Below, in pieces: positions 25,602-63,710 of a stretch of DNA of 64,000 nucleotides. The stretch is from Manihot esculenta. Its lineage: Eukaryota > Streptophyta > Magnoliopsida > Malpighiales > Euphorbiaceae. Position 1 is the stretch's first letter; each line of letters starts with the position of its first letter. The stretch covers positions 24,152,665-24,216,664 of the forward strand of contig NC_035164.2 of NCBI RefSeq assembly GCF_001659605.2. The letters are read 5' to 3'. Under the pieces are notes generated by a model. That model did no database searches. It was not told the DNA's origin and worked only from the letters and a program-made list of their open reading frames with translations. Made by a program: the position numbers and the translations under genes.

Positions 25602-25642
25602 CTAAAACAAATTAGAAACATACAAAAAGGAGGAAACGAACC

Positions 25643-30774: not shown

Positions 30775-30787
30775 GGCTCTGATACCA
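30775..30787 (-). promoter_or_regulatory. Primer-binding site of element C
   Basis: Element-sense TGGTATCAGAGCC, three bases from the 5' LTR edge at 30791; initiator tRNA-Met type. A leader of about 200 bp separates it from the gag ATG. Confidence 0.9.
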
Positions 30788-30790
30788 ATC

Positions 30791-35958: not shown

Positions 35959-35995
35959 TTCTTCCCCCCTTAAGAACATTCGTCCCCGAATGTTC
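35959..35995 (-). promoter_or_regulatory. Polypurine tract and upstream hairpin of element A
   Basis: Element-sense TTAAGGGGGGAAGAA touches the LTR, preceded by GAACATTCG/CGAATGTTC with a four-base loop (35974-35995). Confidence 0.82.
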
Positions 35996-36070
35996 AACAA
36001 CAAACACATGCATAGCATAAACATAAGCACACATATCACAAGGAAGCACATAACAACAAAAACACTAACC

Positions 36071-40368: not shown

Positions 40369-41584
40369 AATCTGGTCATAGGAGCGGCAATTTTGGAGAA
40401 GTCCTGAACGAACCTCCTATAGTAACCTGCCAAACCCAAAAAGCTCTTAATCTCTGTAACTGTAGTGGGTCTAGGCCAGTTAGCTACAGCCTCCACCTTC
40501 TTGGGGTCCACTTCAATTCCTTTTTCTGGCACAACATGTCCCAAGAAGGAAATGCTCCTCAACCAGAACTCACATTTGAAGAACTTGGCATACATGCCAT
40601 ACTCCCTCAGGGTCTGCAAAACTATCCTCAGATGATGGGCTTGCTCCTCTGCGTTTCTGGAATATACTAATATATCGTCAATGAAAATGATAACAAAGTG
40701 ATCCAGATACTGGCTAAAAACTCTGTTCATGAGATCCATGAATGCTGCAGGGGTATTGGTTAGCCCAAACGGCATTACTAGGAACTTATAATGCCCATAT
40801 TTGGTCCTGAACGCCGTCTTCGGCACATCTTCTTCTCTGATTCTCAGCTGGTGGTACCCGGATCTCAGATCTATCTTGGAAAAACAACCTGCTCCTGCTA
40901 GCTGGTCAAATAGATCGTCAATCCTAGGTAACAGATACTTATTCTTGGTAGTGACTTTGTTCAACTGCCTGTAGTCGATACAAAGTCTCAAGGATCCATC
41001 ATTCTTCTTTACAAATAGCACTGGAGCACCCTAAGGTGAGGTACTCGGTCGGATGAAACCCTTGTCTACCAACTCTTACAACTGCTCCTTTAGCTCCTTT
41101 AACTCTGCTGGTGCCATCCTGTAGGGAGGGATAGAGATTGGTCTAGTTCCAGGCACCACTCCTATTTCGAACTCTATCTCCCTAGCAGGTGGTAGTCCTG
41201 GAAGCTCGTCTGGGAAGACATTTGGAAACTCTCTGACTACGGGCACTGAGGCGGGCTCCCTAACCTGACTATCAAGCTCTCTCACATGAGCTAGAAACCC
41301 CTGACAACCCCTCCTGAGCAACCTACGAGCCTGTAGGGCTGATATCAGACCTCTAGGCATACCCCTCCTATCTCCCTTGAAGACAACCTCTGACCCATCC
41401 TGATCTCTGAACCTGACTACCTTGTCTCTGCAGTCCAAGGTAGCACCATGAGCAGATAGCCAATCCATCCCTAGAATGACATCAAAATCCGTCAAGTCTA
41501 GAACCACAAGGTCGGCTAGAAGGCATCTACCCTCAACAAACACTGGACTAAACCGGCAGACTGACTCTGCCACTGATGGATCAC
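40369..41584 (-). pseudogene. Element A pol, middle part: protease C-terminus and RT
   Basis: Leftwards from 41584 the product resumes at [20 protein letters not shown], the second half of protease. It passes [19 protein letters not shown] and enters RT with [33 protein letters not shown] and FIDDILVYS. Two stops break it: 41076-41078 (Gln codon in relatives) and 41031-41033 (Trp of SPWGAP in relatives). It stops at D's target site. Its upstream half (gag to protease, ending SGPKCD) is on the other strand at 56739-58489, separated by the split solo LTR E2 and the inversion. Confidence 0.92.
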
Positions 41585-42828
41585 TGACTCGCGGTTGTCG
41601 AAGTCGGTAAAAAATAACCTTTCCGGTTATCAACAATCTTACAACTGCAGATAGTGGTAAAGGATCGAATCCACAGAGAATTGAAAACTTATCTATTTTT
41701 TCTCAACAAGACCAAGAGATTAAACTGAATGAGAAACTGAAAGCAAGTAGCTGAAAGCGGAACAAAAGTAAAGTGCAATAAAAGTAAAAGGGGGAGGTTT
41801 TGAGATTGATTTGATTAGCAAACTACTGAAAGCAATTAAATGAGCAAGTAATAATTAAATAAAAGAGAAATCTAATATGAGAAAGGTCTAGTTGAAGATA
41901 TGGATCCACTTTGGTTGTTTGGATTGATCATTGAAACTCATGTTCTCTTTATTGATTCAATAGATTAGTTATGGAGATGGAAAACGCTTCTCACCACCAT
42001 GTCTCTCCTTATGATTAAATAATTAGGGAACGTCCTCTAATCAATTACTAATTAACAAATTGCCAAGGAACATCCTTGGGCCTTAGGCATCAAAACAATT
42101 GTCAATTGCATGAAGAAAGAGAGAGATCCAACCCTAACTACTCAAACGCATGAGATGTTGCTAGATCATACAATTCCCTAGTTATTACACCAAGTGTTCT
42201 TATATTAGAATAATTCCAGCAATTACGGACTAAAAATTATCCCAACTAACAATCAATTACCTTGCAATCAAGAATCAAGTGGCCAATTTGATCAAAACAA
42301 CAAAGTAATCATAGATTCAAGCACCAAATTGTATGAATATTGAACAAATCAAAGACAAATAGTTTATGTTCAGATCTCACAATCCATAAAACAAACTTAG
42401 TTTCAACCAATCTTCAACTAGAATAAAAGGTTTCAGCCACTCATGGTTGAAACAAAATAGAAAATAAAAGGAGAACACAAAGGAAGATGAACCGAATTGG
42501 AGATGGAGATGGTGCGCCTTGCTTGGCCAGATGGGGGAGAAGGAGTTGCTGTCCAATCTGCCTTGGATGGCCTCTTTGAGATCTTTAAATATGTTCTAAG
42601 GTGCTGTCTTAGGGTTTCAAGAGGCTGCCCAAAATGCCCTTAGTCCAAGATGTGCCATCCATGCACATGTGTGAAGGGAAAAACGTGGGGCATGTGTGGC
42701 TTGTGCAAGAGTGGGTCTTTTGGTCTTTGTTTGCTGCCCAAATGTCTTCAAGATGCTGCCCAAGGTGCCCAAGACTTGCCTTCACACTCTCCTTGCCGCC
42801 CATGCACTAATAAGGAAGGTGGAGCCTT
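41585..42828 (-). repeat. Solo LTR E2 (Athila type), 3' portion, cut by inversion breakpoint
   Basis: On the plus strand it begins TGACTCGCGGTTGTCGAAG directly after ATCAC (41580-41584; GTGAT in element sense) and is homologous to 11697-13090 and 54345-56194. It ends abruptly at GGAGCCTT (42828), where F's RT begins. E1 shows which sequence should follow: a stretch ending ATTCAAA, which is found at 58964 on the other strand. Confidence 0.9.
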
Positions 42829-45488
42829 GTCTGCAGAACTATCCTCAGATGCTGGGCATGCTCCTCTGCATCTCTGGAATACACTAAGATGTCATCGATA
42901 AAAACAATAACAAAGTGATCCAGATACTCACTGAACACTCTGTTCATGAGATCCATGAATGCTGCAGGGGCGTTAGTCAACCCGAACGGCATCACTAAGA
43001 ACTCATAATGCCCATATCTGGTCCTAAAAGCTGTCTTTGGCACATCTGCCTCTCTGACTCTCAACTGATGATACCCGGATCTCAGATCTATTTTAGAGAA
43101 ACAACCTGCTCCAGCTAGCTGGTCGAATAGATCATCAATCCTCGGTAACGGATACCTATTCTTGGTAGTGACCTTGTTCAACTGTCTATAGTCGATACAA
43201 AGTCTAAGGGATCCATCCTTCTTTCTGACAAAAAGCACTGGAGCACCCCAAGGTGAGGTACTAGGGCGGATGAAACCCTTATCTACCAAATCCTGCAACT
43301 GTTCTTTCAACTCCTTTAACTCTGCTGGTGCCATCCTGTAGGGAGGAATAGAGATAGGTATGGTATTAGGCAGCAATTCTATTTCAAACTCTATCTCCCT
43401 ATCAGGTGGTAGTCCTCGTAAGTCGTCTGGGAACACATCTGGAAATTCTCGAACTACTGGTACTGCGGCTGGTTCCCGAACCTGTCTATCTAGCTCTCTC
43501 ACATGAGCTAGAAACCCATGACAACCCCTCCGAAGCAAACGACGAGCCTGAAGGGCTGAAATCAAACCTCTGGGTGTACCTCTCCTGTCTCCTCTGAAGA
43601 CACACTCTGACCCATCCTGGTCTCTGAGACTAACTATCTTCTCTCTACAGTCCAAGGTCGCACCATATGCAGATAACCAATCCATCCCTAGAATGACATC
43701 AAAATCTGTCAAGTCTAGAACCACAAGGTCAGCTGGAAGGCATCTACCCTCTATGAACAGTGAACTGAAATGACAGATTGACACTGCCACTGATGGGTCA
43801 CACTTGGGTCCACTGACCCAGAGAGGATACTCTAACTCAGACATGATCAAACCCAATCTCTCTATGGCTCTCGAAGCAATAAAGGAATGAGAAGCACCGG
43901 GGTCCATCAAAGCATACACATCTGAACACCCAATGATGAGATTACCTGACACCACTGTGTTCGACGTGTTAGCCTCCTCCTGTGTCACAGTGAAAATCCG
44001 TGCTGGGGCTACCGAATTTCCACCGCGGGAACCTGCTGCTGACGGAGAGGCTGTCCCTCTACCTCTACCTCTGCCACTACTCTGCGGCATGACTGGTGCT
44101 ACTGGCTGTACCACACTGCCTGAACTCATCTGCTGGGATGGTGCAAAAGTCACCTGAGGACAATCCCGAGCAAAATGCCCTTCCTGTCCACACCTATAAC
44201 AGGCTGAAGATCCCAGCTGACAAGCTCCCTTGTGTGGTCTCCCCCAGCTCCTACATACTGAACTGCTTGCGCTAGAGCTTGAGTCACTACCTATTCCCAG
44301 ACCAGACTTGACTTTACTCCAGAACTTATTCTTTGTTCCTTTTGCCTTTTCCCATCTTTTGCTGCCTGAAGTTCCTGAACTGGGGGCCTTAGAACCCGAA
44401 GACTGTGCTTTTGACTGTCTCTGAATATTGGCACTTGCTTCCATTTTCCTGGCTGCATCCACTATAGTGTGGAAACTCTCCTTTTCTACTGGAAGAATCA
44501 AGGAAGAATACCTGGGATGCAATCTCATAGTATATCTCCTTGCCTCCTTCTGATCAGTATCATAGGCCTGACCCACATACTGAAGCAAATCCAGAAACTT
44601 ATCTGTAAACTCATCAACACTCATCTCGTCTGTCTGTCTCAACTGCTCAAATTCTATTACTTTCATCTCCCTGGAGCTGTCAGGAAAAGCCCACCCTGCA
44701 AACTCATTGGCGAACTCTCCCCATGACATACTGTCCATCCTGGGCTCCATATAGTTCTTGAACCATTCTCGAGCTTCTTACACTTCAGTGTAAACCCCCG
44801 CCATTTCTATGGCTCTGCTATCATCTGCTCCCAACTCACTGGTTATCATCCTAACTGATCTGAGGTATTCAAATGGATCATCTCCTGGATTGAACTTAGG
44901 AGCATCCAATTTCAAGTACTCTGTCATTTTCACCTTACCTCCAGATGAGCTAGGCTGCTGTGCTGCAACAACAGGGGCTACTGGTTCTGGTTGTGGTGGT
45001 GGAGGTACTGGTTCATTTAGCTCTGGGTGTGCTGCACTTGGATGACTAGGTGAAGGTGGATACATAGGATATGGTGGGTAATAATGAGGATAAGGCATAT
45101 ATGGCATGTAAGTAGGATATGGGACAAAACTAGAGTACTCCGACATACCTCCCATCGGATACCCTGAGTCCTGAGGAAAGGCTGGATAACCAAACCCTGA
45201 GGTCTGAGCGCCTCCCTGAGACTCTCCCATACCTTCTTCAGATCTGCCTATACCCATGCTTTCATCTATAGACTGGTCAATTTCCATAGCCTCCCTCTCT
45301 TCCTCTGCTCTTCCTCCTTTAATTGTACCTCTTCTGCTCTCGTCTACAGACCTTCTAGGGTCTATTGACGTACCTTTCCTGCTAGATCTTTGTGACCTTG
45401 CCCTTGGCAATGCAGGAGGACGAGCATCTGTTCTCTCACTCTCTGGTGGGACTCCAGTCAATCGATTTGATCGACGAGTTCCTCGCAT
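42829..45488 (-). pseudogene. Element F gag-protease-RT (5' part), cut by inversion
   Basis: It starts [16 protein letters not shown] at 45488 and carries the gag domain. A pair of compensating frameshifts lies at about 44770-44805: one extra base in the MAGFTLKC region and one missing base in KKAREW. The zinc knuckle [14 protein letters not shown] is intact, while the preceding Cys box is altered. Protease DPGASHSF and RT with LCIDYRQLN and FIDDILVYS follow. The frame breaks off at LRIVLQT (42829). Its continuation, [15 protein letters not shown], is at 58966 on the plus strand. The leader and primer-binding site follow at 45489-45712. F encodes nothing complete in its present arrangement. 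Confidence 0.92.
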
Positions 45489-45699
45489 TTTAACTCTGGA
45501 AAACAACACACAACATAGCATATCAGCATATATATCTCAAATATGCACATGCATAACATGGCATTTCATAGCATCAAACAGATAGAACAGATAGGACTCA
45601 ACACCCTATCCTAGTGGACATGATTTCCTATTGTGCTTGACTTCCTCTAACCTCTATCAGCCTGACACTCTCTCTATAGGTCCGATCATGTGAACCTAG

Positions 45700-45712
45700 G
45701 GCTCTGATACCA
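45700..45712 (-). promoter_or_regulatory. Primer-binding site of element F
   Basis: Element-sense TGGTATCAGAGCC, three bases from the LTR edge at 45716; initiator tRNA-Met type. It identifies 45716-47753 as F's 5' LTR. Confidence 0.9.
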
Positions 45713-45715
45713 ATC

Positions 45716-47753
45716 TGTAACGACCCCAAAATGGACCGTCACCGGCGCTAGGATTCAGGTCGGCTTAAAGCTGCCAGAACCCGTAGCAAGCCTGCTATAC
45801 TCTCTGTGTACCTGTAAATCTCATACATGATCATACATTTTCTGTGAAAATAAAAACTTTTCTCTGGACCAAGGCTTAACCTGTGCATGCACTATCTCTG
45901 TACTCTGTACTATGTACCCCTGACTAGAGCTTACTCTAGATGGGTTAACTCATACCTGTTAAGCCCGGTTTTTCACATACTCTGTAAAACATATACATAT
46001 ACAGATCATGTACATAACAAAAGATTTACAACACAAAATAACTAAGTCAAGCACAACTTTAACTGTATACACAACTAGTACATCTCTTTAATAGTACATG
46101 TCCACTCTAAGCTATTACAAATCTTTTCTCTCTTTCTGTACTCTGCTGGCCTTCCCCTGTACACTGTACACTGAACCTGCAAGACTGGGGTTAAGGGAGT
46201 GGGATGAGCTCTATAGCCCAGTGAGTAGAATAGTAAAACAAGTCATTAACGCATGTTCTTATGGAATGCATCATATCACAGACAATCCACATCAAGGGTA
46301 AACTTGTCACCACATAGTCCCAGTAACTGTTCTGTGCCAGGCCGTAGACTGGGGTCCTGGTCTTCCTGTACTGTATATGTATATGTGTATATAACACCTG
46401 TACTTACCATTTGCTAGGGCGTAGACTGGGCACCTGGTCTTTACTATACCTGCCAGGCCGTAGAATGGGGTCCTAGACTTCCTGTCTGGAACTATTGGAT
46501 CATTCAGCATTCACCCACATCAACAAATAACTATGCAATGCAACATATTTGTGAATGCTAGTGCAAACAACCTACTGTATACTCATGATGCATGACTGAT
46601 GCTAAAAGCATTTCATTTCTTAATTAAAAGAATTAAGTTTAGGTCCACTCACCTCTGGCTATCTGGACTGACTCTGCAGGCTCTGTAAACTCTGGAGCAG
46701 TACTCACTGCTGCTCTCTCTGGTTCCTCTGGTCTGTGTAGGCACAGATAAACTCAAATGAGGGACCAAACTAGCTGATAAACATCTCTACTAAACTCCCC
46801 AAGGCTCCCCTGAAACTCACTCAAACATCCATGCAAAGCATGCTAAGAAAGGCTGGACAGGACACTTTCGGCGGCAGGTTCGGCGGCCGAAAGTCCAAAT
46901 GCTCGGGGGCAAGCTTAGGCAACCGAAGCCACCTCCTCAGCACATTCGGCGGCCGAAGCTGGGTTCATCAGCAAAGCAGAACCTTGCTCTGCCTCACGCC
47001 AAAATGCACCAATCTTCTTCCAACTCAAACACCTCAACTCCTCAACATGCATACACCCAAGTATATGCTCAAAGGGGACAGAAACTACCTTAAAACCCCA
47101 ACAACACAAAACATATAACACATATACAAGCTTTTCTCACAAAAATATCAAAAAAACCTCTCTTTTACCCTAATCATGCAACTCTCCCCAAAACCTCAAA
47201 AAATCAGCCATAAAACATGAAAACAAGCTCAGGATCTTCACTTACCTCTTGAAACCAAGAAGATGAACGATCCTAACGTGGAGTTTTGGAGCAACTCTCC
47301 TTCAAACTCTCCAAACTTCACAATTTTGTGTTTTTAGCTCAAAACCTTAAAAAAAGCATCAAAATCATTCAAATCTTTGCAAGATTAGATGAAAACATGA
47401 AGAATACTCAAGAAGGACAGGGTCTCACCTCAGAAAGAGAAAGAAAAGGCAATCCTTATCCTTTCAACCGACTGAGGGCCTTTTATAGGTGGCTGGCCAG
47501 ACCACCTTCGGCGGCCTATCGTGAAACCGTAAGCCATGCATGTTCGGCGGCCGAATTTTCACCTTCGGCGGCCGAACCTGGCTTTTCTGCCTTGATTCTT
47601 TTCTTTCAAAAACACATTTCCTTATACTTTAAAACTATGAAATATAGCAAAACCTTGTAGCAAAACATAAATTTGACCCTTTTAGAGGCTTCTGACATTC
47701 CGGATTCCACCGGAAAGTAGAACTCCGATGCCGAACTCCAGCCGGGTATTACA
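45716..47753 (-). repeat. Element F 5' LTR (2038 bp)
   Basis: In element sense it starts TGTAATACCCGGCTGGAGTT at 47753 and is preceded by AGTTA (47754-47758 reversed). It is close to 61313-63516 but about 166 bp shorter, because a block of the GGCGGCC palindrome cluster is missing near 46885. TATA box at 47479-47489. Confidence 0.94.
47479..47489 (-). promoter_or_regulatory. TATA box in element F 5' LTR
   Basis: Element-sense CCTATAAAAGG, matched in F's 3' LTR at 61577-61587 (plus strand). Confidence 0.62.
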
Positions 47754-48878
47754 TAACTCCTTATCAATTACATCTAATGTAACTCTTAGATTATGAGGTG
47801 TTGACATTATATGTCAAATGCATGTTATACCCCATCTAATGCCTTAGGCTCAAAACTGTTTTGATAGCCTAATTAAGCCCAACCAAAATTAAATAGATGA
47901 GTAACTATTACTCATCCTATCTTACTAAGATAACCTAAGCACTTTGCTTTGGCAAAACCTGCATTTTGGTGATCTCAGTCTTAATAGGTATTTAATATAT
48001 GGGTGGCATTAAAACTTAAAATTTAGAGTGAGGGTTCAACTTTTAATTTTAATTATTTTGTCTTGCATATATATATATTATAGCATCCTATATGCATACA
48101 TATATATATAGACTATCATGCATAGTATCTCATACTAATATATGAAAAAATAATAAAACTATTTTACATAGTCATTTAAATAAGATTTAAAGACTAAAAG
48201 AAGATAATATTATTTTTTTTATTTTATTTTATTGTATTTTTTTATTTTAAATTTTCAGGGGCAGAATTGTAATTAGGGCATCATCTTCTTCCTCAGGAAG
48301 AAGCCCTAGCTGCCACCAAGAAACCAGTAGCCCGTCGGATGCTCCACGAGCCTGTGCATGGTAGCCACACCATGCGAGGCTTCGTCCGCCATCACGCAGC
48401 AAGTGCGCAAGGCGGCAACGTGCCTCGACAATGGCCGTCGACTCGCGAGGGGATCTTGAACCAAGACTTTCTCTGCCTTCTCATCGCCGCTCGCCGCCAA
48501 GCTTCAGCCATCGGCGGTTCCTGCAATGGACAACGATAAGATCGTCGAGCAGATCGAGATGCCCGATGACAATCTCAACAGCCATAGATGTTGTAGCTGC
48601 GCACGGCATGCGTGCTTCGTTGGCCATAGGGACACGAAGCCTATCGTCGGACGTCATCAGGCTGTCGCCAGATGTTCCAAGAGTTGTTAATCATCTTCCA
48701 CGATTTTCAAGAAAATCCTTTTTATTTAATTAATTATATTTTTTAATTTAATTTTTCTAACAAAAATTACCTAAATGATCTCATCATTCATCCATAATTA
48801 TCATGCCATTCTAATAAACATATATCGCATATATAATATTAATCATGGCATAATTAACTTAAACGAAAAGCACAGGTT
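47754..48878 (-). other. Ty1/copia leader (inverted part)
   Basis: It lies between the copia primer-binding site and F's target site AGTTA, and continues at 63517 after un-inverting. A GC-richer block at about 48250-48720 has short open frames on both strands but no recognisable protein. A perfect 9-bp inverted repeat CTTCTTCCT/AGGAAGAAG is at 48285-48303. The remainder is AT-rich. I see no host gene. Confidence 0.65.
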
Positions 48879-48891
48879 GGCTCTGATACCA
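48879..48891 (-). promoter_or_regulatory. Primer-binding site of the copia element
   Basis: On the minus strand CCCAACA (LTR end, 48893) is followed by TGGTATCAGAGCC, complementary to initiator tRNA-Met. Its direction shows that the copia 5' LTR lies to the right of it in present coordinates and that the element reads leftwards here, opposite to its gag at 63711. Confidence 0.85.
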
Positions 48892-48892
48892 C

Positions 48893-49858
48893 TGTTGGGA
48901 AATCTAGAGATTATTGCAACTCAAATTGCATAGCGGAAAAATAAAATCTCTTTGATTTCCTTTCCCAGAATTCAAGTGCTTCGTTTATTTCAAAGGAAGG
49001 ATATGAGACTAACCTGTTAATCTCATCGAGAAGATACAATGCCAGACTGATGGTGCTGCTTTTTCAAACGAACACCCTCAATGGTATCCACACGAACGCC
49101 TTCTATCCTTCTAAAGTGCTAGCTCTCTCAAGGTTGGATAGATTATGTGCTCCACAATCTGCAACTGTTAGACAGAATTTCAAAAATGTTTCTTCACTCC
49201 TAAATTTGTAGGAGTATTTATATGTTTCAGTCTTTTGTTTTCCCACAACTCTTTTCCCAAAAGAGTTGTGTTCAAAACCCACTATCATAATCTCGCAGAT
49301 ACTCAAATATCTTATGTGATAGAATCCTTTATCTATAACAGTTACAGATAGATTGCAGATCTTTTAAATATTATTATCTTATAATAATAAATAATTAATA
49401 ATAATAACACTTTATTATTATTAATTAATATTAATAATAATAACACTTTATTATTATTAATTATATTAATGGGCTTTAGGTCATTAATATGTCATAGCAC
49501 ATCAACAACATTCTTTTGTGTGTGACCCAATAGGCTCATATTAACTGACAATAAGCCCAATCCCATAAGGCCCGTAAGTCATAAGTGGCCTCTAGCAAGA
49601 CATTATGACTATCCAACTAATATGAGGATTAATAGTCCAATAAAGCTTAACAAATAGAACATATATTAATCCCTTTGTCACATGATATCTAGTTTGAATA
49701 TAAGTCTTGGTCAATGTCAAACTTATAATGTTCAAACTTATGATTTCTCGATCTCTAAGTAGACTGATAAATTCAAATAATATTGATCACACTATCAATT
49801 CATTTAAGCACGGCCATGCATTTCTCAGTCTCACTTATCGAAGGGCCCATAAGATATT
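48893..49858 (-). repeat. Ty1/copia 5' LTR, 3' portion
   Basis: It starts TGTTGGGAAATC on the plus strand. In copia sense it starts from the G insertion site (ATATT, 49854-49858) with CTTATGGGCCCTTCGATAAG and GAATGCATGGC nearby, typical of copia LTRs. It ends CCCAACA next to the primer-binding site. Confidence 0.8.
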
Positions 49859-52249
49859 TGTAACGACCCCAAAATGGACCGTCACCGGCGCTAGGATTCA
49901 GGTCGGCTTAAGGCCGCCAGAACACGTAGCAAGCCTGCTATACTCTCTGTGTACCTGTAGAACTCATACATGATCATACATTTTCTGTGAAAAATAAAAA
50001 CTCTTTTCTCTGTACCAAGGCTTAACCTGTGCATGCACTATCTCTGTACTCTGTACTCTGTACTCTGTACTCTGTACTCTGTACTCTGTACTCTGTACCC
50101 CTGACTAGAGCTTGCTCTAGATGGGTTATCTCATACCTGTTAAGCCTGGTTTTTCACATACAGTAAAACATATATAAATATCCAGATCATGTACAAAACA
50201 TACATCACTAAGTCAAGCACATTTCTAACTTTATACACAACTATTACAGCTCTTTAAGATTACATGTCCACTCTAAGCTACTACAAATCTCTTTACTCTT
50301 TCTGTACTCTGCTGGACTGTCCCTCTACACTGTACACTGAACCTGCAAAACTGGGGTTAAGGGAGTGGGATGAGCTCTATAGCCTAGTGAGTATTCTGTA
50401 CTCTGCTGGACTATCCCTGTACACTGTACACTGAACCTGCAAAACTGGGGTTAAGGGAGTGGGATGAGCTCTATAGCCCAGTGAGTAGAACAGTAAAACA
50501 TCTCAGTAAAACATGATCTCATGGAATGCGTCATAACACAGACAAACCACATCAAGAGTAAACCTGTCACCACATAGTCCCAGTAACTCTGTGCCAGGGC
50601 GTAGAATCGAGCACCTGGTCTTCCTGTCATATATGTATATGTGTATATAACACCTTTGTACTTACCATTGCCAGGGCGTAGTCAAAGGCTCCTGGACTTT
50701 ACTATATACCTGCCAGGGCGTAGTCAAAGGCTCCTGGTCTTTACTATACCTGCCAGAGCGTAGTCAAAGGCTCCTGGACTTCCTGTCTGAGACTATTGGA
50801 TCATTCAGCATTTACCCACATCAACAACTAACTATGCAATGCAACATATTCGTGGATACTAATGCAATCACCCTACTGCATAATCATGATGCATGAGATA
50901 TGCTAAAACAGTCCATTGTGCAAGTTAAACAAAGTTAAGTTTAGTTCCACTCACCTCTGGCTATCTGGACTGACTGACTCTGCAGGCTCTGTAACCTCTA
51001 GAGCAGAACTCACTGCTGCTCTCTCTGGTTCCTCTGGTCTATACCTATACAGATGGACTCAAATGAGGGACCAAACTAGCTTATGAATAACTCTATTAAA
51101 CTCCCCAAGAATCCCCTTAAACTCACTCAACTAGCCATGCAAAGCATGCAAAAGAAGGCTGGACAGAACACTTTCGGCGGCAGGTTCGGCGGCCAAAAGT
51201 CCTCTCCAGAGACGAAACTCAAGCACCTTCGGCGGCCGAACTTCCACTTTTGGCTGCCGAACCCTTTCAGGGGCAAGTTTCGGGGGCCAAAAGGCACTCC
51301 AGAGATGAAAGTCTCTACCCTTCAGCGGCACCTTCGGTGGCCGAACTTCCCTCCAGAGCCGAAAGTCCAAAAGCTCGGGGGCAAGCTTAGGCAGCCGAAG
51401 CCACCTCCTCTCTCCTCCTCAGGGGTTCGGCGGCCGAATGTACCTTCGGCTGCCGAACCTGAGTTCATCAGCAGGGCAGAAACTTGCCCTGCCTCTCACC
51501 AAATGCACAAAACCCTCTCCAACTCAAACACCTCACTTCCTCCACTTGCATACACTCATGTATATGCTCAAAGGGGTCAAAAACTAGCTAACAACCCCAA
51601 ACACACAACACAAACAACACAAAAACAAGCTGTACACATAAATCATCAAAAACTCTCAAATAACCCTATTCATGCAACTCTCTCCATCAAACCCCATAAA
51701 ACCTTCAGAAAACATAAAAACAAGCTCAGGATCTTCACTTACCTCGTGAAAACAAGTAGATGAAGGATCCTAACGTGGAGTTTTGGAGCAACTTGCCTTC
51801 AAACTCTCCAAACTTCAAAACTTTGAGTGTTTAGCTTAAAACCTTCAAATAATCATGAAAACTAATAAAATCTTTGCATGATTTAATGAAAACATGAAAG
51901 AAAACTCACAAAGGACAGGGTTTCACCTCAGAAGACAAAAGAAACGGTGCTCTGACCGCTTCAACCGACTGAGGGCCATTTATAGGTGGCTGGCCAGACC
52001 ACCTTCGGCGGCCACACGTGAAACCGAAAGCCATGCATGTTCGGCGGCCGAACCTCAACTTCGGCGGCCGAACCTGGCTTTTCTGCCTTGGTTCATTTCA
52101 CTCAAAAACTCATTTCCTTATGCATAACACTTAATGAACATATCACAAACATTATAGAAAACATCACTCTATCCCTTCTAGAGACTTTCGACATCCCGGA
52201 CTCCACCGGAAAGTAGAATTCCGATGCCGGACTCCAGCCGGGTATTACA
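49859..52249 (-). repeat. Solo LTR G, Tekay type (2391 bp)
   Basis: It runs TGTAACGACCCC to GGGTATTACA and is flanked by the exact duplication ATATT (49854-49858 and 52250-52254). It lies in the copia 5' LTR. It is longest because of a 94-bp tandem duplication (50301-50394 and 50395-50488) and an expanded CTGTACT microsatellite (about 50043-50098). Hairpin cassettes are at 50590-50780. A variant TATA (element-sense TATAAATGG) is near 51970. GGCGGCC clusters lie at 51170-51460 and 52000-52070. Confidence 0.95.
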
Positions 52250-52432
52250 ATATTTCTCTCAGAGAGAGGGACAAATCCTATCTTGATTGTTCAATATCCT
52301 CTATATAATTTCTATTATGCTCAATCATAACCTTTATGATTGTCCGATTAAAGACAATGTTTGGTTATGTCAAAACATAACAGTCCTTATGTTGGAAACT
52401 ATGACAATCTCAAGTCAAAGGATTAAGACATA
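52250..52432 (-). repeat. Ty1/copia 5' LTR, middle fragment
   Basis: It lies between solo LTR G's right target copy and A's right target copy (ACATA, 52428-52432; TATGT reversed). In copia sense it reads TTGACTTGAGATTGTCATAG, and AATATTTCTC-like sequence joins the next fragment. It continues 14281-14553 once A and the inversion are removed. Confidence 0.78.
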
Positions 52433-54344
52433 TGTAATACCCAGCTAGACCCCAGCATCGGAATTCCTACCTTCCGGCGGAATCTCTGTTGGAATTTAGA
52501 ATTTCTCGGATGTCGGAGCCTTCTAGAGGGGTAAAATAAGGGTTTTGTAAAAAATTTTATATGGTTTTATGGTTTTAATGAAGAAAGAAAATTGAGTTTT
52601 GAAAGAAAATGTTTTGGAGGAGAAACCCAGGTTCGGCCGTTGAACCTCATGTTCGGCCGCCGAACATGGTGGAGTTGCGGAGGCACTTTTGGCCTCCGAA
52701 AGTGGTCTGGCCAGCCACCTATAAAAGGCCCCCTGTCTAAAAATGGGCGAGTTTTCTCTCTCCATTTCCGAGCAAGGTGAGTCTCCGCCACCCCCTTGTT
52801 GATCTTGTGTTTCCTCCTCAAATCCTTCAAGATTTTTATGAGTTTTTACCATGTTTTGAATATTTTAAGCTAAGATCAATGTTTTGAAACTTGGAGACCC
52901 CAGGAGCTCATTCCTCCATATCTTCAAGTTTGGGATCGCATCTCCTCTCGATCTTCAAGAGGTAAGTGTAGATCCTCATCTTCTCTTATGTTTTTAAGTA
53001 AGTTTTATGAAGGGTTAAGGGGTTTTGATGCATGTTTAGAGTAGATGTAAAATGTTAGGGTTTATGTACCCTTTATGCTTAATATGATGCTATGTTGATG
53101 TTTGTTGGGTTTAGGCTAGTTTTATGCCCCTATATGCTTGAATAAGTGTTTATGCATGTTTTAGAATAGTTGAATGCATGTTGTTAGGTTTTTGGATGGC
53201 TGAATGCATGAGGCGGAATCGGGTTTTGCCATTCTGGAGAACCCAGGTTCGGCTGCCGAAGCCATGTTTGGCCGCCGAACCTACCTGGGGAGGCAGCCTT
53301 TGGCCGCCTAAACTGCCCCCAAAAGTAAGGACTTTCGACTCTAGAGGGGAGTTTCGTCCGCCGAACCTGCCCTCGAAGGTTGGTGACTTTCAGCTCTGGA
53401 AGGACTTTCGGCCGCCGAACCCTGCCCCTGAAAGTGCCTAACTTTCGGCTCTAGAGGGAACTTTGGCCGCCGAACCTGCCACCAAACCTGCCACTAAAAG
53501 TCCCCTGTCCAGCCTTTCTTTGCCTGTTTTCAATGCATGTTTTGTGATGTTTTAGGGGGTTTTTGGGGAGATGTTTAGAGTCATGTTAGAGTATGTTTAG
53601 TCCCTCATTTGAGTCCACCTGTGTAGGATCGGACCCGAGGAACCGAGGAGGACAGCAGTGTTAGCTGTTTTAGAGTCAGCCAGAGGTGAGTAGAACTGAA
53701 CTATGTTTTAAAGTAAATGAAATTTTTAGCATGTTCATGCATCAGGAATGCCATGATATGTACTAGGTTGTTTTGCATTAGAATTCACGAATATGATGCA
53801 TTGCATAATATGATGTTGATGTGGATGGATGTTGGATGACCCACTAGCCCTCGATATGATATGTTATGATACAGTATGGAAGTCCAGTGAGGCCCATTCT
53901 ATGCCCCTGGCACGATGTGAGAGAAAGACCAGTGAGGCCCATTCTACGCCCCTGGCACATTGGATATGTTATGTTATATCATGTTAAGAGAAAGTCCAAT
54001 GAGGCCCATTCTACGCCCCTGGCACAATTGGACTATGTAGAAGGTTATTGGTGACAAGTCCATCCGTGATGTGAATTGTTTGTGATGTGATGCATTTCAT
54101 GATGGCATATGTTTATAAACTGTTTTATGGTTCTGCTCACTGGGCTTTAGTAGCTCACCCCTTTCCCCTAACCCCCAGGTTGCAGGGCCAGAGATAGCTC
54201 AGGAAGTCACCAAGGGTAAAGGTTATGTATATGTAATAGATTACTAGTAGACATGTAATGATATGTAAAATAATGTAATGTAATGTAAGGTATAATACAG
54301 TGATGTAATGAGGATTAGTATTGTGCTTGGCCCTAATGTATGGT
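52433..54344 (+). repeat. Element A 5' LTR, part 1 (inverted half)
   Basis: It starts TGTAATACCCAGC and matches A's 3' LTR (reverse of 34145-35958), including a TATA box CCTATAAAAGG at 52728-52738 and hairpin cassettes at 53870-54030. It ends in ATGGT (54340-54344), the target copy of E1. Without E1 and one target copy the whole LTR is 2192 bp. Confidence 0.94.
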
Positions 54345-56194
54345 TGACTCGCGGTTGTCGAAGCCGGTTAAAAATAACCTTTCTGGTTATCAACAATTTA
54401 CAACTGTAGATAGTGGTGAAAGGATCGAATCCACAGGGAATTGAGGACTTACCTATTTTCCTTATCAAGACCAATAAAATAAACTGAAACAAAAATAAAC
54501 TGAAAAAGAAGAAAACTGAAAATGAGATAAACTGAAACGAGATAAAACTGAAAACGAGATAAACTGAAAGCGGAATAAAAATAAATTGCAGTAAAAGTAA
54601 AATGGGGGGTTTGAGATTGATTTGATTAAAAAACTACTGAAAGCAATTAAAATAAGCGAATAATAAAATAAAAGAGAAATAAATAATAAGAAAGCTCTAG
54701 TTGAAGAATTGGATGCACTTCAATTGTTAGGATTGATCATTGACACTCAATTTCTTTTGATTGATTCAATAGATTAGTTATGGAGACGGAAGACGCTTCT
54801 CACCACCATGTCTCTCCTTATGATTAAACCAATTAGGGAACGTCCTCTAATTAATTACTAATTAACAAATTGCCAAGGAATGTCCTTGGGCTTTAGGCAT
54901 CAAAAAAATGTTAATTGCATGAAGAAAGAGAGAGATCCAATCCTAACTACTTAAACGCATGAGATGTTGCTAGATCATACAATTTCCTTGGTTTTTACAC
55001 CAAGTGTTCTTATGTTTGAATAATCCAAGCAATTACGGACTTAAATCACCCAAACTAACATATTATTACCTTGCAATCAAGAATCAATTGGCCATATTGA
55101 TCAAAACAACAAAGCAACAATGAAATTAAGCATGAGATTGTATGAATATTGAATAACAAGAGATAAACAATGTTTGATCAATTCTCCCAATCCATAAAAC
55201 AACTAAAGTATCACCTAATCTTCAACTAGAATAAAAGGTTTCAGCCTCTCATGGCTGAAACAAAACCAAAAATAAAAGAAAAGAAGAAAGGTAGAAGAAG
55301 AGATGTGAATCCCGTAGGTGTCTCCAAGGTGGTGTAAAAGCTGTGTGGAGGCTCCTTATGTGTCTTTTTATAGTTGAAAGTGCTGCCCTAGGTCATACTT
55401 GCTTCCTAATTAGTGAAGAAGCTGCCCAAAGTACTGAAAAGGAAAGAATCGCGTTGCAAATTCTCTGGAAGGAAGGAGGGGCGCGGATCAGGCTTCAGAA
55501 GAGGAAGGATGCGCACGGATTGCAGAAGAGGAAGTGGAGCGCAGTCATTGAATGCAGAAGGAAAAGTGAATCTGTCCAGTCTTTCCTTTTTAGGTGGAGC
55601 CTTCGTTTGAATTTTGAATGTTGAACGTAGAAGAGGCAAGTGGGTCGTCATGAGATCTTGCTGCCTAAATAGGAAGATATGACTGCTGCAGTGTGTGCAT
55701 ATCTTTGAATAAGGAAAGAAAGATCTGTGATTTGAATTTCAAATAATCTTCTGACTGAGCTTTCCTTATTTGCTTTTGCTTCTGCACTTCCCTTATTTGA
55801 GGACTTTCCTTTTCTAAAAACTTTCCTTATTTAACACTTTCCATAATTGGCTTCACCTTCTGAATAAGGAAAGAAGAATCTGCAATTTGAATTTCAAAGA
55901 ATCTGTTGATTACGCTTTCCTTTTCTGGCACTTTTCTTATCAGAAAACCTTCCTTATTTAGCACTTTTCATATTTGAAAACTTTCCTTTTTTAGCACTTT
56001 TCATATTTGAAAACTTTTCTTTTTTGGCACTTTCCATATTTGGCACTTTTTGGCAGTTTTAAGAGCAGTTTCTCCAGATTGTCTCTTTACACCTAATATC
56101 TGCAAAATATGATTAAAACCACAAAATTAGGTAGAAAAGGTGTAAATAAACATCAATAAGATCATGATAATATGGACTAAAATATGCTCTATCA
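54345..56194 (-). repeat. Solo LTR E1, Athila type (1850 bp)
   Basis: It runs TGACTCGCGG to CTCTATCA on the plus strand, with the exact duplication ATGGT (54340-54344 and 56195-56199) and no internal region. It interrupts A's 5' LTR within CTAATGTATGGTAAATCCC; the uninterrupted sequence is present at 14862-14892. It serves as the reference for joining the halves of E2. Confidence 0.93.
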
Positions 56195-56479
56195 ATGGTA
56201 AATCCCTTTTTGTACATGATCTTATGTTAATGTTTTAATGATGTTATATGTTGAACCAAGCTTGATGTATGTAATGTTAACCCAATATGAATAAAGTTAT
56301 GGTGCATGCACATGTCAAGCTTGGTATATGAAAAGTTTAAAGTTTTTATGGAAATGTATGATCATGTATGGGATTTTATCAGATGTACAAGATGTATAGT
56401 AGGCTTGCTACGGATCCCGGCGACCTTAAGTCGATCTGGATCCTAGCGCCGATAGCGGTCCGGTTTCTGGGTCGTTACA
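56195..56479 (+). repeat. Element A 5' LTR, part 2
   Basis: It resumes with the second ATGGT copy and ends GGGTCGTTACA at 56479. It matches the reverse of 14554-14875. Confidence 0.94.
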
Positions 56480-56482
56480 GAG

Positions 56483-56495
56483 TGGTATCAGAGCC
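56483..56495 (+). promoter_or_regulatory. Primer-binding site of element A
   Basis: TGGTATCAGAGCC three bases after the LTR end; initiator tRNA-Met type. It proves that 52433-56479 is a 5' LTR and that A's gag reads rightwards here, whereas its pol reads leftwards at 36-41 kb. Confidence 0.9.
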
Positions 56496-56738
56496 CTGGG
56501 TTCATATGGTCGGACCTAGAGTGTGTCGGGCTCATAGATGTTATAGAAGGGCAAGCACAATGGGAAAAATCATGTGCACTAGGATAGGATGTAGAGTCCT
56601 GTCTTGATGATGATGTGTAATGCCATGACTATATGCATGTGCATTAATGATATCCTATGTGTGATGCGAGTTCATGTGTTTCCACATGAACCATATGATG
56701 TTAATGTTATGTGTTTTATGTCATTTTTCAGAAGCAGG

Positions 56739-58489
56739 ATGAGAGGCTCACGTCGATCCGCTAGATTGACAGGAGCTCCACCAGAAAATGAGGGCATGGA
56801 TGCCCGTCTCCCTGCTTTGCCAAGGGCTATTTCTTGTAGATCAAGTAGAGAGGGTACGTCAAGGGACCCTAAAAGGTCTTTTGACGTAAGCAGGAGGGGA
56901 ACAGTCCAGGGTGGTACGTCAGCTGATGTGAGGGTTCAGAGGAGGATGAACAGAGAAGAGATGGTAGCTTGGGCATGAGCATGTCAGAAGAGGGCATGGG
57001 AGAGTGGCAAGGAGGTGCTCAGGCCTCGGGGTTTGGTTATCCACCCCAATATCAACCCTTTCCATAGGGCCCAGGGTATCCGATGGGGGGTACATCGGAT
57101 TACTCCAGCTTTAACCCATATCCCTCTTACATGCCTTACCCTCCTTTTTACCCACCATATCCCCAGTACCCTATGTATCCACCCTCACCCTTCTATCCAA
57201 ATACAGCAAACCCTAACCCAGGGAATGCTGCACCTCCTCCACCACCAGTAAAACCTATGGTCCCTGATATCCAAACACCTAAACCTAGCTCATCTGTGGG
57301 GAGCAAGGTAAAGATGACGGATTACCTGAAGCTGGATGCTCCCAAGTTCAAAACAGGTGATGATCCGTTTGAGTACCTCAAAACGGTAAAAATGATAACA
57401 GATGAGTTAGGGGCAAATGATAGTAGAGCCATTCAGATGGCAGGGTTCACACTGAAATGCAAGAAGGCACGAGAATGGTTCAAAAACTATATGGACCCGA
57501 GGTTGGAGAGCTTATCCTGGGAGGACTTTGCAAATGAGTTTGCTGGATGGGTGTTTCCAGACAGTTCCAGAGAGCTGAAAGTTGTTGAGTTTGAGCAGCT
57601 AAGGCAGACAGAGGATGTGAGTGTCGACGAGTATACCGACAGGTTTTTGGAGTTGCTGCAGTATGTGGGTCAGGCATATGACACAGATCAGAAGAAAGCT
57701 AGGAGGTATACCATGAAACATCACCCTAAGTATTCCTCCCTGATCCTTGCAGCAGAGAGGGAGAGTTTTCACACCATTGTGGATGCAGCACGGAAGATAG
57801 AGGCTAGTGCCATCATAGAGGGGTCAGTTAAGCAAACAGTGGCACAGTCTTCGGGTTTCATGACCCCAGGCAGGGGAAAGTTAGATCCCTCTTCTCTGAG
57901 TGCAGCAGCTTCAGGCAGTAAAAAGTGGGACAAAGGCCTCAGAAAGCCCAAGAAGAATAAGTTCTGGAACAGGTTAAAGTCAGGTCTGGGTTTTGGTGGT
58001 GGCTTAAGCTCAGGTTCAGATGGTTCAGAATGCTTGAGATGTGGTAAGCCACACAAGAGAGTATGTCGGTTTGGGACGACAGCCTGCTTCAGGTGTGGGC
58101 AGGAGGGACACATGGCACGGGAGTGTCCTAGAGCAGCTTTTATGGCACCGTCCCAGCAGACGGCTTCAGGTAGTGTGGCTCAGCCAGTAGCTCCAGCCAT
58201 GACTCAGGGCAGTGGCAGAGGCAGAGGGAAAGGGGCAACCTCTTCTTCAGCAGGTTCCCGGGGTGAAGGTCCATCAGCTCCAGCTCGGATCTTCACTATG
58301 ACACAGCAGGAGGCAAACACGTTAAACACCGTGGTGTTAGGTAATCTCATCATTGGTTGTTCAGATGTGTATGCTTTAATGGACCCTGGTGCTTCTCATT
58401 CTTTTGTTGCTCCGAGAGCCGTAGAGAGGTTGGGTTTGATAGTCTCTGGGTTAGAGTGTCCCCTCTGGGTCAGTGGACCCAAGTGTGAT
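56739..58489 (+). pseudogene. Element A gag and protease N-terminus, cut by E2
   Basis: It starts [20 protein letters not shown] frameshift at about 56940-56970 moves the frame to SLGMSMSEEGMGE. A TAG at 57065-57067 precedes GPGYPMGGTSDY, after which a long frame holds the gag domain ([15 protein letters not shown]), the CCHC knuckle [24 protein letters not shown] and protease DPGASHSFV. It stops at VSGPKCD with the GTGAT target site of E2 (58485-58489). The next codons of the family, DPSVAES, are at 41584 on the other strand. A non-functional gag. Confidence 0.92.
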
Positions 58490-58964
58490 TGATAGAACAC
58501 ATTTTAGTCCATTTTATCTTGATATTATTGATGATTATTTACATGATTTCTGCTTAATTTAGTGCTCTTTACATTATTTTGCAGAAAATAGTGTAAAAGG
58601 ACATTTTGGAGAAAATCCCCCTAAAACTGCCTTAATTGGAGCAAAGGAGTGCAAGCCTGCCAAATTGAATTCAAGTGAAGCTAAATAAGGAAAGTTCTAA
58701 ATAAGGAAAGTGGCAAAGAAGGAAAGAACATTCAGCCAAAGCAATTTGAAATTCAAATTTCAAATCTCCAAGTAGCCTCTTCCTTATTCAAGAAGCCAAG
58801 TCTCAAGTTGCCATATATGAAGAGCCAAATAAGGAAAGTATTTTGAAATTCAAATCTTCAAGATTCCTATTCAAATTTTGAATTTCAAAATCCAGCTTAT
58901 TAAGGAAGCCAAATCCAAATATCACATGCTTGCCACCACATGCCTTGCACATTCAAAATTCAAA
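58490..58964 (+). repeat. Solo LTR E2 (Athila type), 5' portion, cut by inversion breakpoint
   Basis: It starts TGATAGAACACATTTTAGTCC, matching the reverse of E1's right end, and continues through the same low-complexity GAAATTCAAA repeats. It ends at ATTCAAA (58964), followed at once by F's RT. Added to 41585-42828 it makes about 1.72 kb, comparable to E1. Confidence 0.88.
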
Positions 58965-61232
58965 TTGAGAGAGCATGGTTTGTATGCCAAGTTCTCTAAG
59001 TGTGAGTTTTGGTTGAGGAGCATTTCCTTCTTGGGACACGTGGTATCAGCAGAGAGGATTGAGGTAGACCCCAAGAAGATAGAGGCTGTAGCTAACTGGC
59101 CCAGACCCACTACAGTGACTGAGATTAAAAGCTTTTTGGGACTGGCAGGTTACTACAGGAGGTTCGTTCAGGACTTCTCGAAGATAGCTGCTCCTATGAC
59201 CAAACTGACTCAGAAGAACCAGAAGTTTGTCTGGTCAGACCAGTGTGAAGAGAGCTTTGAGGAGCTCAAGAGGAGATTGACATCAGCACCAGTGTTAGCT
59301 CTGCCTGTTAGTAACGAGGATTTCACAGTGTTCTGTGATGCATCTCGAGTGGGATTGGGCTGTGTTTTGATGCAGAGTGATAGGGTGATTGCTTATGCTT
59401 CTAGACAGTTGAAGAAGCACGAGTTGAATTACCCCACCCATGACCTAGAGATGGCAGCAGTTATCTTTGCACTCAAGATGTGGAGGCATTACCTTTACGG
59501 GGTTAAATGCGAGATCTTCACTGATCACAAGAGTTTACAGTACATCTTGAGTCAGAGAGAGCTGAATTTGAGGCAGAAAAGATGGGTGGAATTGCTCAGT
59601 GATTATGATTGTAAGATCCAGTATCATCCGGGTAAGGCGAATGTTGTGGCAGACGCCCTAAGCCGGAAGTCACTAGGCAGTTTATCCCATATAGCAGCAG
59701 AGCGGAGACCAGTAGTGATGGAGCTGTACAAGTTCATCGAGGAGGGGTTACAGCTAGAATTGTTTGGTACAGGTGCATTGATAGCACAGATGAGAGTGAC
59801 ACCTGTGTTTCTGGAGCAGATAGCTCAGAAATAGCATAAGGACCCAGAGTTGATGAAAATTGCCAGGACTGTTCAGTCAGGCAACAGTGCGGAGTTCAGA
59901 TTTGACAGCAAAGGGATCCTTCGCTATGGGAGTCGACTTTGTGTACCAGATAGTAGCAGTCTGAAGGAAGACATTATGAGGGAAGCTCATAATGCGAGGT
60001 ATAGTGTTCACCCAGGAGCCACCAAAATGTATCAGGATCTGAAGAGGGTATATTGGTGGCCAGCCATGAAGAAAGAAGTGGCGCAGTTCGTGACAGCCTG
60101 TGAGGTTTGTCAGAGGGTGAAATTAGAACATCAGAAGTCGGCTGGAATGCTTAACCCACTGCCGATTCCAGAGTGGAAATGGGAGAACATAGCTATGGAT
60201 TTTGTAGTGGGCTTACCAGCAGCGTCCAACAGGATAGACTCCATATGGGTGATTGTGGACAGACTCATGAAATCTGCTCATTTCATTCCAGTGAGGAGTA
60301 ACTATTCTGTGGATAAGTTAGCACAGGTATATCTGGATGAGATAGTGAGATTACATGGAGTTCTAGTGTCAATAGTCTCAGACAGAGGACCTCAGTTCAC
60401 CTCCAGATTTTGGCGAAGTCTGCAGTGTGCGATGGGCACAAGGTTAGATTTTAGCACTGCTTTCCATCCGCAGACTGATGGACAGTCAGAGAGGACCATC
60501 CAGACCATAGAGGATATGCTCAGAATGTGTGTGTTAGACTTTGGCGGTTCTTGGAGGTAGCATCTACCTCTGGTGGAGTTTGCCTACAATAACAGTCATC
60601 ATGCTAGCATTGGGATGGCTCCTTATGAAGCGTTGTATGGGAGGAAGTGTAGATCACCTGTTTGCTGGGAAGAGGTTGGAGAGAAAGCTCTTGCAGGGCC
60701 AGAGTTGGTAGAGATTACCAGTAGAACAGTGCCTATGATCAAAGAGAGGATCAGAACAGCTCAGAGTAGACAGAAAAGCTACGTAGACGTACGCAGGAAG
60801 CAGATAGAGTTTCAGGAGGGTAGTATGGTATTGCTAAAGGTGTCTCCAATGAAAGGAGTGGTTCATTTTGGCAGAAAGGGTAAGTTAGCTCCACGATACA
60901 TTGGACCCTTTGAGATCGTACAGAGGATCGGGAATGTGTCGTATAAGCTGGATTTACTTGTTTCTATGGAGAGAATTCACCCGGTATTCCATGTTTCTAT
61001 GCTATGACAGTGTGTGTCAAATCCGGGTCAGGTTATTAGTGAGCCTGATGTGGAGATTCTTAGAGATCTCACCTATGTAGAGCAGCCAGTACGGATTCTG
61101 GACACGCAGATCAGGCAGCTAAGGAACAAGGAGATTCCAATGGTGAAAGTTCTGTGGAACTACCATAATCTAGAACAGTGCACCTGGGAGACGCGGGAGT
61201 CTATGCTTCAGCAATATCCATATCTGTTTTGA
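58965..61232 (+). pseudogene. Element F RT C-terminus, RNase H, integrase and chromodomain (3' part)
   Basis: The product starts [18 protein letters not shown] and includes RNase H ([19 protein letters not shown]), integrase [10 protein letters not shown] and [45 protein letters not shown] and the chromodomain VKVLWNYHNLEQCTWE. Three in-frame stops break it: TAG 59832-59834 (Gln in relatives), TAG 60558-60560 (Gln) and TGA 61005-61007 (Arg). The natural stop is 61230-61232. It continues the minus-strand half that ends LRIVLQT at 42829. Confidence 0.93.
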
Positions 61233-61275
61233 GGTTCATTTTCCTCCTTTTTATGTGTTTATTTGTTTGTTTGAG

Positions 61276-61312
61276 GAACATTCGAGGACGAATGTTCTTA
61301 AGGGGGGGAGAT
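61276..61312 (+). promoter_or_regulatory. Polypurine tract and upstream hairpin of element F
   Basis: GAACATTCG/CGAATGTTC with loop AGGA (61276-61297) is followed by TTAAGGGGGGGAGAT touching the 3' LTR. Confidence 0.84.
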
Positions 61313-63516
61313 TGTAATACCCGGCTGGAGTCCGGCATCAGAGTTCTACTTTCCGGTGGAATCCGGGATGTTGGAAGCCTCTAGAAGGGTCAAATTTATG
61401 TTTTGCTACAAGGTTTTGCTATATTTCATAGTTTTAAAGTATAAGGAAATGTGTTTTTGAAAGAAAAGAACCAAGGCAGAAAAGCCAGGTTCGGCTGCCG
61501 AAGGTGAAAATTCGGCCGCCGAACATGCATGGCTTGCGGTTTCACGATAGGCCGCCGAAGGTGGTCTGGCCAGCCACCTATAAAAGGCCCTCAGTCGGTT
61601 GAAAGGATAAGGATTGCCTTTTCTTTCTCTTTCTGAGGTGAGACCCTGTCCTTCTTGAGTATTCTTCATGTTTTCATCTAATCTTGCAAAGATTTGAATG
61701 ATTTTGATGCTTTTTTGAAGGTTTTGAGCTAAAAACACAAAATTGTGAAGTTTGGAGAGTTTGAAGGAGAGTTGCTCCAAAACTCCACGTTAGGATCGTT
61801 CATCTTCTTGGTTTCAAGAGGTAAGTGAAGATCCTGAGCTTGTTTTCATGGTTTATGGCTGATTTTTTGAGGTTTTTGGGAGAGTTGCATGATTAGGGTA
61901 AAAGAGAGGTTTTTTGATATTTTTGTGAGAAAAGCTTGTATATGTGTTATATGTTTTGTGTTGTTAGGGTTTTAAGATAGTTTCTGACCCCTTTGAGCAT
62001 ATACTTAGGTGTATGCATGTTGAGGAGTTGAGGTGTTTGAGTTGGAAGAAGATTGGTGCATTTTGGCGTGAGGCAGAGCAAGGTTCTGCTTTGCTGATGA
62101 AACCAGCTTCGGCCGCCGAATGTGCTGAGGAGGTGGCTTCGGTTGCCTAAGCTTGCCCCCGAGCATTTGGACTTTCGGCTCTGGAGGGGAGTTTCGGCCG
62201 CCGAAGATGCCCCCGAAGGTTAGAGACTTTCGTCTCTGGAGTGCCTTTCAGCCCCCGAAACTTGCCCCCGAAAGGGTTCGGCTGCCGAAAGTTGAGATTC
62301 GGCCGCCGAAGGTGCATGAGTTTCGGCTCTGGAGAGGACTTTCAGCCGCCGAACCTGCCGCCGAAAGTGTCCTGTCCAGCCTTTCTTAGCATGCTTTTCA
62401 TGGATGTTTGAGTGAGTTTCAGGGGAGCCTTGGGGAGTTTAGTAGAGATGTTTATCAGCTAGTTTGGTCCCTCATTTGAGTTTATCTGTGCCTACACAGA
62501 CCAGAGGAACCAGAGAGAGCAGCAGTGAGTACTGCTCCAGAGTTTACAGAGCCTGCAGAGTCAGTCCAGATAGCCAGAGGTGAGTGGACTTAAACTTAAT
62601 TCTTTTAATTAAGAAATGAAATGCTTTTAGCATCAGTCATGCATCATAAGTATACAGTAGGTTGTTTGCACTAGCATTCACGAATATGTTGCATTGCATA
62701 GTTATTTGTTGATGTGGGTGAATGCTGAATGATCCAATAGTTCCAGACAGGAAGTCTAGGACCCCATTCTACGGCCTGGCAGGTATAGTAAAGACCAGGT
62801 GCCCAGTCTATGCCCTGGCAAATGGTAAGTACAGGTGTTATATACACATATACATATACAGTACAGAAAGACCAGGACCCCAGTCTACGGCCTGGCACAG
62901 AACAGTTACTGGGACTATGTGGTGACAGGTTTACCCTTGATGTGGATTGTCTGTGATATGATGCATTCCATAAGATCATGTGTTAATGACTTGTTTTACT
63001 ATTCTACTCACTGGGCTATAGAGCTCATCCCACTCCCTTAACCCCAGTCTTGCAGGTTCAGTGTACAGTGTACAGGGGAAGGCCAGCAGAGTATAGAAAG
63101 AGAGAAAAGATTTGTAATAGCTTAGAGTGGACATGTACTATTAAAGAGATGTACTAGTTGTGTATATAGTTAAAGTTGTGCTTGACTTAGTTATTTTGTG
63201 TTGTAAATCTTTTGTTATGTACATGATCTGTATATGTATATGTTTTACAGAGTATGTGAAAAACCAGGCTTAACAAGTATGAGTTAACCCATCTAGAGCA
63301 AGCTCTAGTCAGGGGTACAGAGTACAGAGTACAGAGATAGTGCATGCACAGGTTAAGCCTTGGTCCAAAGAAAAGTTTTTATTTTCACAGAAAATGTATG
63401 ATCATGTATGAGATTTACAGGTACACAGAGAGTATAGCAGGCTTGCTACGGGTTCTGGCGGCCTTAAGCCGACCTGAATCCTAGCGCCGGTGACGGTCCA
63501 TTTTGGGGTCGTTACA
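61313..63516 (+). repeat. Element F 3' LTR (2204 bp)
   Basis: It starts TGTAATACCCGGCTGGAGTC and ends GGTCGTTACA, followed by AGTTA (63517-63521). It has a TATA box at 61577-61587, GGCCGCCGAA clusters at 61490-61560 and 62100-62370, and three hairpin cassettes at 62750-62900. It pairs with the minus-strand LTR 45716-47753. Confidence 0.95.
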
Positions 63517-63710
63517 AGTTACCTTTCTAAATAACTTAATTCTAAGCATCATGCCAAAGTTGATTTGGAATTAGGTGAAATATTGATCTTAGCCTACTAA
63601 AATATTATTATTTTAATAATTTTTTTGAGCGTTATATTTTAGTGGGAGATTATTATCACCTCAATATTAAATTGCTAAATTGATTATATTTGCATATTTT
63701 GTAGATTATT
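63517..63710 (+). other. Ty1/copia leader, continued
   Basis: It starts with F's right target copy AGTTA. The sequence is AT-rich and leads to the copia gag ATG. It continues the leader now lying inverted at 47754-48878. Confidence 0.7.

Follow-up and report, generated by a model that had tools for sequence, protein, structure and literature searches.

A 64,000-nucleotide window of the cassava (Manihot esculenta) genome, C4:24152665-24216664, is occupied by a stack of long terminal repeat (LTR) retrotransposons in which positions 42829-58964 (16,136 bp) lie reversed as compared to the order in which the retrotransposons inserted, and a single inversion is supported as the explanation for all of the split elements. 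The extent of the segment, C4:24195493-24211628 on the chromosome, was established by self-comparison of the window, the mapping of continuous copies from the same families as two pieces on opposite strands, and target-site duplications (TSDs). Coordinates are those of the window unless a contig or copy is named; the window contains 0 Ns and has a G+C content of 42.9%. Genome comparisons were made against a 640.36-Mb cassava assembly of 86 contigs. Both breakpoints of one segment were found, with the order between them reversed, as in a simple inversion. A preliminary description of this DNA had proposed an inversion of ∼16.1 kb spanning 42829-58965; the inversion itself held, while its end is refined here to 58964. 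Very probably, two breaks occurred within the stack of nested elements and end joining put the intervening 16.1-kb piece back in reverse.

Self-comparison and inspection of termini place a copia element outermost in the stack. A gypsy element, A, lies in the copia 5′ LTR, a second gypsy element, F, in the copia leader, and a solo LTR, X, in the copia LTR. Nested within A are the solo LTRs B and E2 together with G, a further solo LTR, E1, sits in the other LTR of A, and D lies in G. One breakpoint falls inside E2, leaving two parts on opposite strands relative to each other: 41585-42828 (plus), flanked by ATCAC at 41580-41584, and 58490-58964 (minus), flanked by GTGAT at 58485-58489. The other falls inside the reverse transcriptase (RT) region of F. 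The first half of F (42829-47753, minus strand) holds the 5′ LTR (45716-47753), primer-binding site (PBS, 45701), gag, protease, and the first part of RT, and ends at the TSD TAACT (47754-47758); the second half (58965-63516, plus strand) holds the rest of RT, RNase H, integrase, polypurine tract (PPT, 61300), and 3′ LTR (61313-63516), and ends at AGTTA (63517-63521). Pfam matches are divided accordingly: gag, protease, and RT fall in one half, the RNase H and integrase parts in its counterpart. In F, RT is matched up to profile position 175/205, near the end of the first half, as compared to position 204 in G and D.

A and the outer copia are also split, because E2 is nested in A and both A and F are nested in the copia. 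The uninverted half of A (14554-42828, minus strand) contains G, D, B, and part of E2; its 3′ LTR comprises 14554-14889 and 34150-35959, with the PPT at 35960 and the TSD TATGT at 14549-14553. The inverted half (52433-58489, plus strand) begins after ACATA (52428-52432) and carries the 5′ LTR (52433-54339 and 56200-56479, split by E1), the PBS (56483), and the internal part up to E2. The first piece of the copia (14232-14553, plus strand) comprises the TSD ATAAG (14232-14236) and the opening 317 bp of the 5′ LTR, followed by A. Its inverted part (47754-52432, minus strand) contains the rest of the 5′ LTR (52432-52250 and 49857-48893, split by X), the PBS (48880), and the leader, followed by F, and the uninverted rest (63517-64000, plus strand) holds the end of the leader and the start of gag and runs beyond the window. 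The preliminary description had reported A, F, and E2 as three split transposons whose opposite-strand halves meet at 42828/42829 and 58964/58965. This arrangement was borne out by self-comparison and family copies, except that the breakpoints themselves fall in E2 and F alone, A being split through the E2 nested within it.

As assembled, the 5-bp sequences bordering A (TATGT/ACATA), F (TAACT/AGTTA), and E2 (ATCAC/GTGAT) on their outer sides mismatch. Once one side is reverse-complemented, 5/5 bases match in each, confirming the target-site matches first described. TSD partners match in 8/8 elements having both ends in the window, as compared to 0/224 comparisons of non-partners; for this count the terminus of X was set at the TG..CA end of the LTR, a first placing, one base off, having given no match. 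Multiplied together, the frequencies of these three 5-mers come to ∼1.7e-9; the preliminary description had judged the three matches, taken with four restored joins, very unlikely by chance. The PBS and PPT lie on opposite strands both in A (PPT minus at 35960, PBS plus at 56483) and in F (PBS minus at 45701, PPT plus at 61300), but on the same strand in the uninverted G and D.

Continuous copies elsewhere in the genome reproduce the same arrangement. Among fetched copies, 22/23 from the E family and 7/7 from the F family map to the window as two opposite-strand pieces meeting at both breakpoints. D, a continuous relative of F within the window, does likewise, with its position 27909 corresponding to 58966 and 27911 to 42828. 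At the site of A, all 11 fetched copia LTR copies lacking A (of 39 others listed) join the 14.5-kb side to 52432 on the opposite strand, with an overlap equal to the 5-bp TSD in ten and of 3 bp in one (L049). At the site of F, two of three fetched copia copies lacking F (L058 and L059) join 63517 to 47754 on the opposite strand, with a 5-bp overlap. These copies agree with the earlier claim that reversal puts the copia LTR, PBS, leader, and gag in order. At the site of E2, four relatives of A lacking E2 (three from the window, one from L033) join 41584 to 58488/58489 with an overlap of 4-5 bp. When the 3′ LTR of F (988 bp) was used as a query, its partner in the window matched at 98% and every other scored copy at ≤92% (40 of 9,323 candidates scored). 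The two halves of F also diverge alike from the same relatives, for example by identities of 95.1% and 95.6% to L002. No near-identical second copy of the locus was present among the scored matches, the nearest E part being 97% and the nearest other F LTR 92% identical. In a search with junction 1, for which 40 of 2,297 candidates were scored, the whole sequence was matched a single time.

At junction 1 (42828-42835), the E2 solo LTR meets the RT region of F. Base 42828 is compatible with both families, and there is an imperfect common TNTNTGCA. At junction 2 (58964-58968), the other part of E2 meets the other part of F; bases 58966-58967 (TG) are compatible with both families, while 58965 fits E and not F. 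Breakpoint placement is accordingly accurate to about 3 bp. The terms "cryptic" and "detector" used in the preliminary description are fair ones for this locus. Copies of the E family have 8 bp between the two parts present in the window (23/23 copies listed) and copies of the F family have 2 bp between the two window pieces (7/7); one extra base (58965) remains at junction 2. If E2 and F matched their families, these figures amount to a net loss of ∼9 bp.

The two breakpoints lack clear homology to each other. Their 100-bp flanks were compared in eight combinations, seven of which scored at the level of shuffled sequence, and the longest word common to the flanks was 9 bp inverted and 8 bp direct. 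The joins combine the absence of extended homology with 1-2 bp of microhomology and a small loss, the size of which is inferred from family copies and does not agree with E1. Such a pattern is expected of end joining and not of recombination between repeats, and the joins very probably arose when two breaks were end-joined. An inversion through staggered breaks, with duplications on its flanks, was rejected, as family bases are missing at the junctions and not repeated.

Several observations weigh against this interpretation. The evidence for the flip comes from a single assembly. The E copy L025 yielded only one piece of the two, and the copia copy L057 showed no match at the site of F. The distant relative E1, within the window, has only 2 bp where the 23 E copies have 8 bp; some of the 9 bp may therefore represent variation older than the flip. 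Finally, the eighth flank comparison, at junction 1, was weakly above the shuffled level, with its score reached by 26/300 shuffles, and slight microhomology there is therefore possible.

The alternative that fares best is an assembly error, in which the assembler placed the segment in reverse and the plant retains the uninverted order. Repeats of high copy number make up most of the region, and the segment is surrounded by gypsy relatives in inverted orientation, with identities of 72-87% between A and F and 90-91% between D and F. However, misplacement would be expected within long near-identical inverted repeats, and the breakpoints instead lie in two different families that share no word longer than 9 bp within 100 bp of them. 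The window is also free of Ns, and both families apparently lost bases at the joins, as mis-joined intact sequence would not be expected to do. Such an error is improbable, and the flip is likely present in the plant and not merely in its assembly.

Recombination between inverted gypsy copies could also flip a piece of DNA, and A and F are indeed oppositely oriented relatives, one on each side. Exchange between them would, however, have produced hybrid A/F elements and breakpoints at matching positions. The position in A that matches the F breakpoint is ∼40611/40612; the real breakpoint sits within E2, at a distance of 2.2 kb, and the E2 flanks there have no homology to the F flanks beyond the weak match at junction 1. 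As the breakpoints are not at matching positions in inverted homologous copies, this explanation is rejected as very unlikely. That the halves are unrelated copies independently inserted in opposite directions is hardly credible even for families with thousands of first-look candidates, given that three 5-bp targets match exactly, that the pieces abut to within 3 bp, that the F LTRs resemble one another more closely than they do the rest of the scored copies, and that insert-free copia copies join both sides. The preliminary description had named halves from unrelated copies as one of two results that would speak against it; the check was run and gave no such result, with F LTRs pairing at 98% against ≤92% and family copies continuous across both points.

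With two breaks and end joining as the preferred explanation, a history of the locus can be proposed. The stack would have grown in one place, starting from the copia, with A entering its 5′ LTR, F its leader, and X its LTR, and with B, E1, and E2 afterwards entering A. Two double-strand breaks, one within E2 and one within the RT region of F, would then have released the 16.1-kb piece, which end joining would have put back in reverse, using 1-2 bp of microhomology and at a net cost of ∼9 bp. It is conceivable, if rather doubtful, that A and F, as oppositely oriented relatives on either side, held the two sites close together in a folded or paired state and so favored inverted rejoining even though the joins themselves are non-homologous.

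LTR divergence (Kimura two-parameter, K) gives an upper bound for the time of this event. The LTRs of F differ by K=0.018 and those of A by 0.050 and 0.041 in two parts. Substitution rates of 1.3e-8 and 7e-9 per site per year place the insertion of F at 0.7-1.3 million years ago. Because the inversion came after F, this is an upper age only. Inserts of the stack were considered as a lower date, an approach that was dropped; G, with K of 0.0008 and 0.0030 in two parts, and D, with K of 0.0005, are situated beyond the inverted segment and are thus silent on their order relative to the inversion. The copia LTRs give K=0.049 over all parts, about equal to the value for A nested within them. This value is uneven, with 56 differences over 949 sites in one AT-rich part and 11/485 in the other two. 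As it rests on that one part, and the other parts alone would look younger than A, the ages are rough. A TAATTA-rich tandem repeat at 49379-49470 in the copia LTR is seemingly variable among copies and lowers LTR identity there.

The remaining elements are nested as follows. E1 (54345-56194, TSD ATGGT) lies in the 5′ LTR of A, X (49859-52249, ATATT) is a solo gypsy LTR in the copia LTR, and B (38102-40368, AATCT) is a solo gypsy LTR in A. G (14895-34144, minus strand, ACAAT) lies in the 3′ LTR of A and served as an uninverted comparator, and D (23465-32890, minus strand, CTGAC) lies in an LTR of G. Both are very young, with LTRs that differ at 1/2,100 aligned sites in D and 4/2,237 in G, and each contains one long open polyprotein frame. 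F has the LTRs, PBS, PPT, gag-protease-RT-RNase H-integrase order, and 5-bp TSD of a Ty3/gypsy element; the core of its integrase scores below the Pfam cut-off and the zinc-binding part above it. The outer element has the LTR pair, PBS, copia-type gag, and 5-bp TSD of a Ty1/copia element, with pol lying beyond the window. Its gag, to the right of F, matches PF14223 at an E value of 1.2e-5, below the curated cut-off. Its 5′ LTR begins at 14237 and a candidate 3′ LTR is located at C4:24230252-24231765, ending 15 kb past the window, with ATAAG (5 bp) both before the former and after the latter. A further gypsy element (L033:899-9936), with LTR pieces 92% alike, lies immediately to the right of the window, inside the span of the outer copia. 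To the left of the copia, a third, diverged relative of the E LTR family (77-81%) occupies 11704-12554, and within 5289-14236, a stretch to which nothing else was assigned, a 199-amino-acid open frame (10540-11136) matches DUF4371 with an E value of 1e-45, a domain of relatives of hAT-type transposases. A survey of neighboring sequence for additional split elements led nowhere.

This inversion, located within repeats, is an unusually clear case of an ordinary event, one that is common in plants. The available part of a 2011 report describes an inversion in the Orp region of Oryza glaberrima with a breakpoint inside the LTR element R16, left as two fragments (PMC3060143). The cassava inversion is similar in being segmental with a breakpoint within an LTR retrotransposon left in two fragments. 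The rice case, as presented there, was seen by species comparison and involved deletion of ∼4.3 kb at each end, whereas in cassava the inversion is read from one assembly, elements are cut at both ends, and ∼9 bp appear to have been lost. In a rice pan-genome study, as far as its accessible text goes, 59/100 inspected inversions were without clear inverted repeats >10 bp at their breakpoints (PMC10030860), as is the case here, but those were found by alignment of many genomes and the cassava inversion by element structure. Inversions are also abundant between cassava haplotypes, with one method giving >2,500 for each pair of haploid genomes and gene synteny only 7-9 in the available portion of one study (PMC8952263), and with 110 larger inversions between the two haplotypes of TMEB117 in that of another (PMC11987339). 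The portions concerned neither mention the present locus among these inversions nor describe breakpoint anatomy. In light of the rice precedent (PMC3060143) and the many cassava inversions (PMC8952263), as far as those texts are available, the novelty of this locus was at first overrated; the kind of inversion was already known, and this one is well documented.

No description of a single-assembly scan for inversions via opposite-strand PBS and PPT and complementary target sites was met in a limited literature search. If A and F did pair, nested stacks would not only record small inversions but also favor them, and scanning a genome for these same signatures would uncover many, already polarized, in a single assembly. 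One assembly alone can yield the breakpoints of an inversion (to ∼3 bp), its direction relative to the ancestral order, and an upper age, because nested elements bring their own internal controls in the form of target sites and of primer and polypurine strands. The practical value of the locus is thus the test it provides, comprising PBS and PPT on opposite strands, complementary 5-bp target sites, and closest LTR partners, which could be applied across repeat-rich plant genomes in which haplotype alignment fails.

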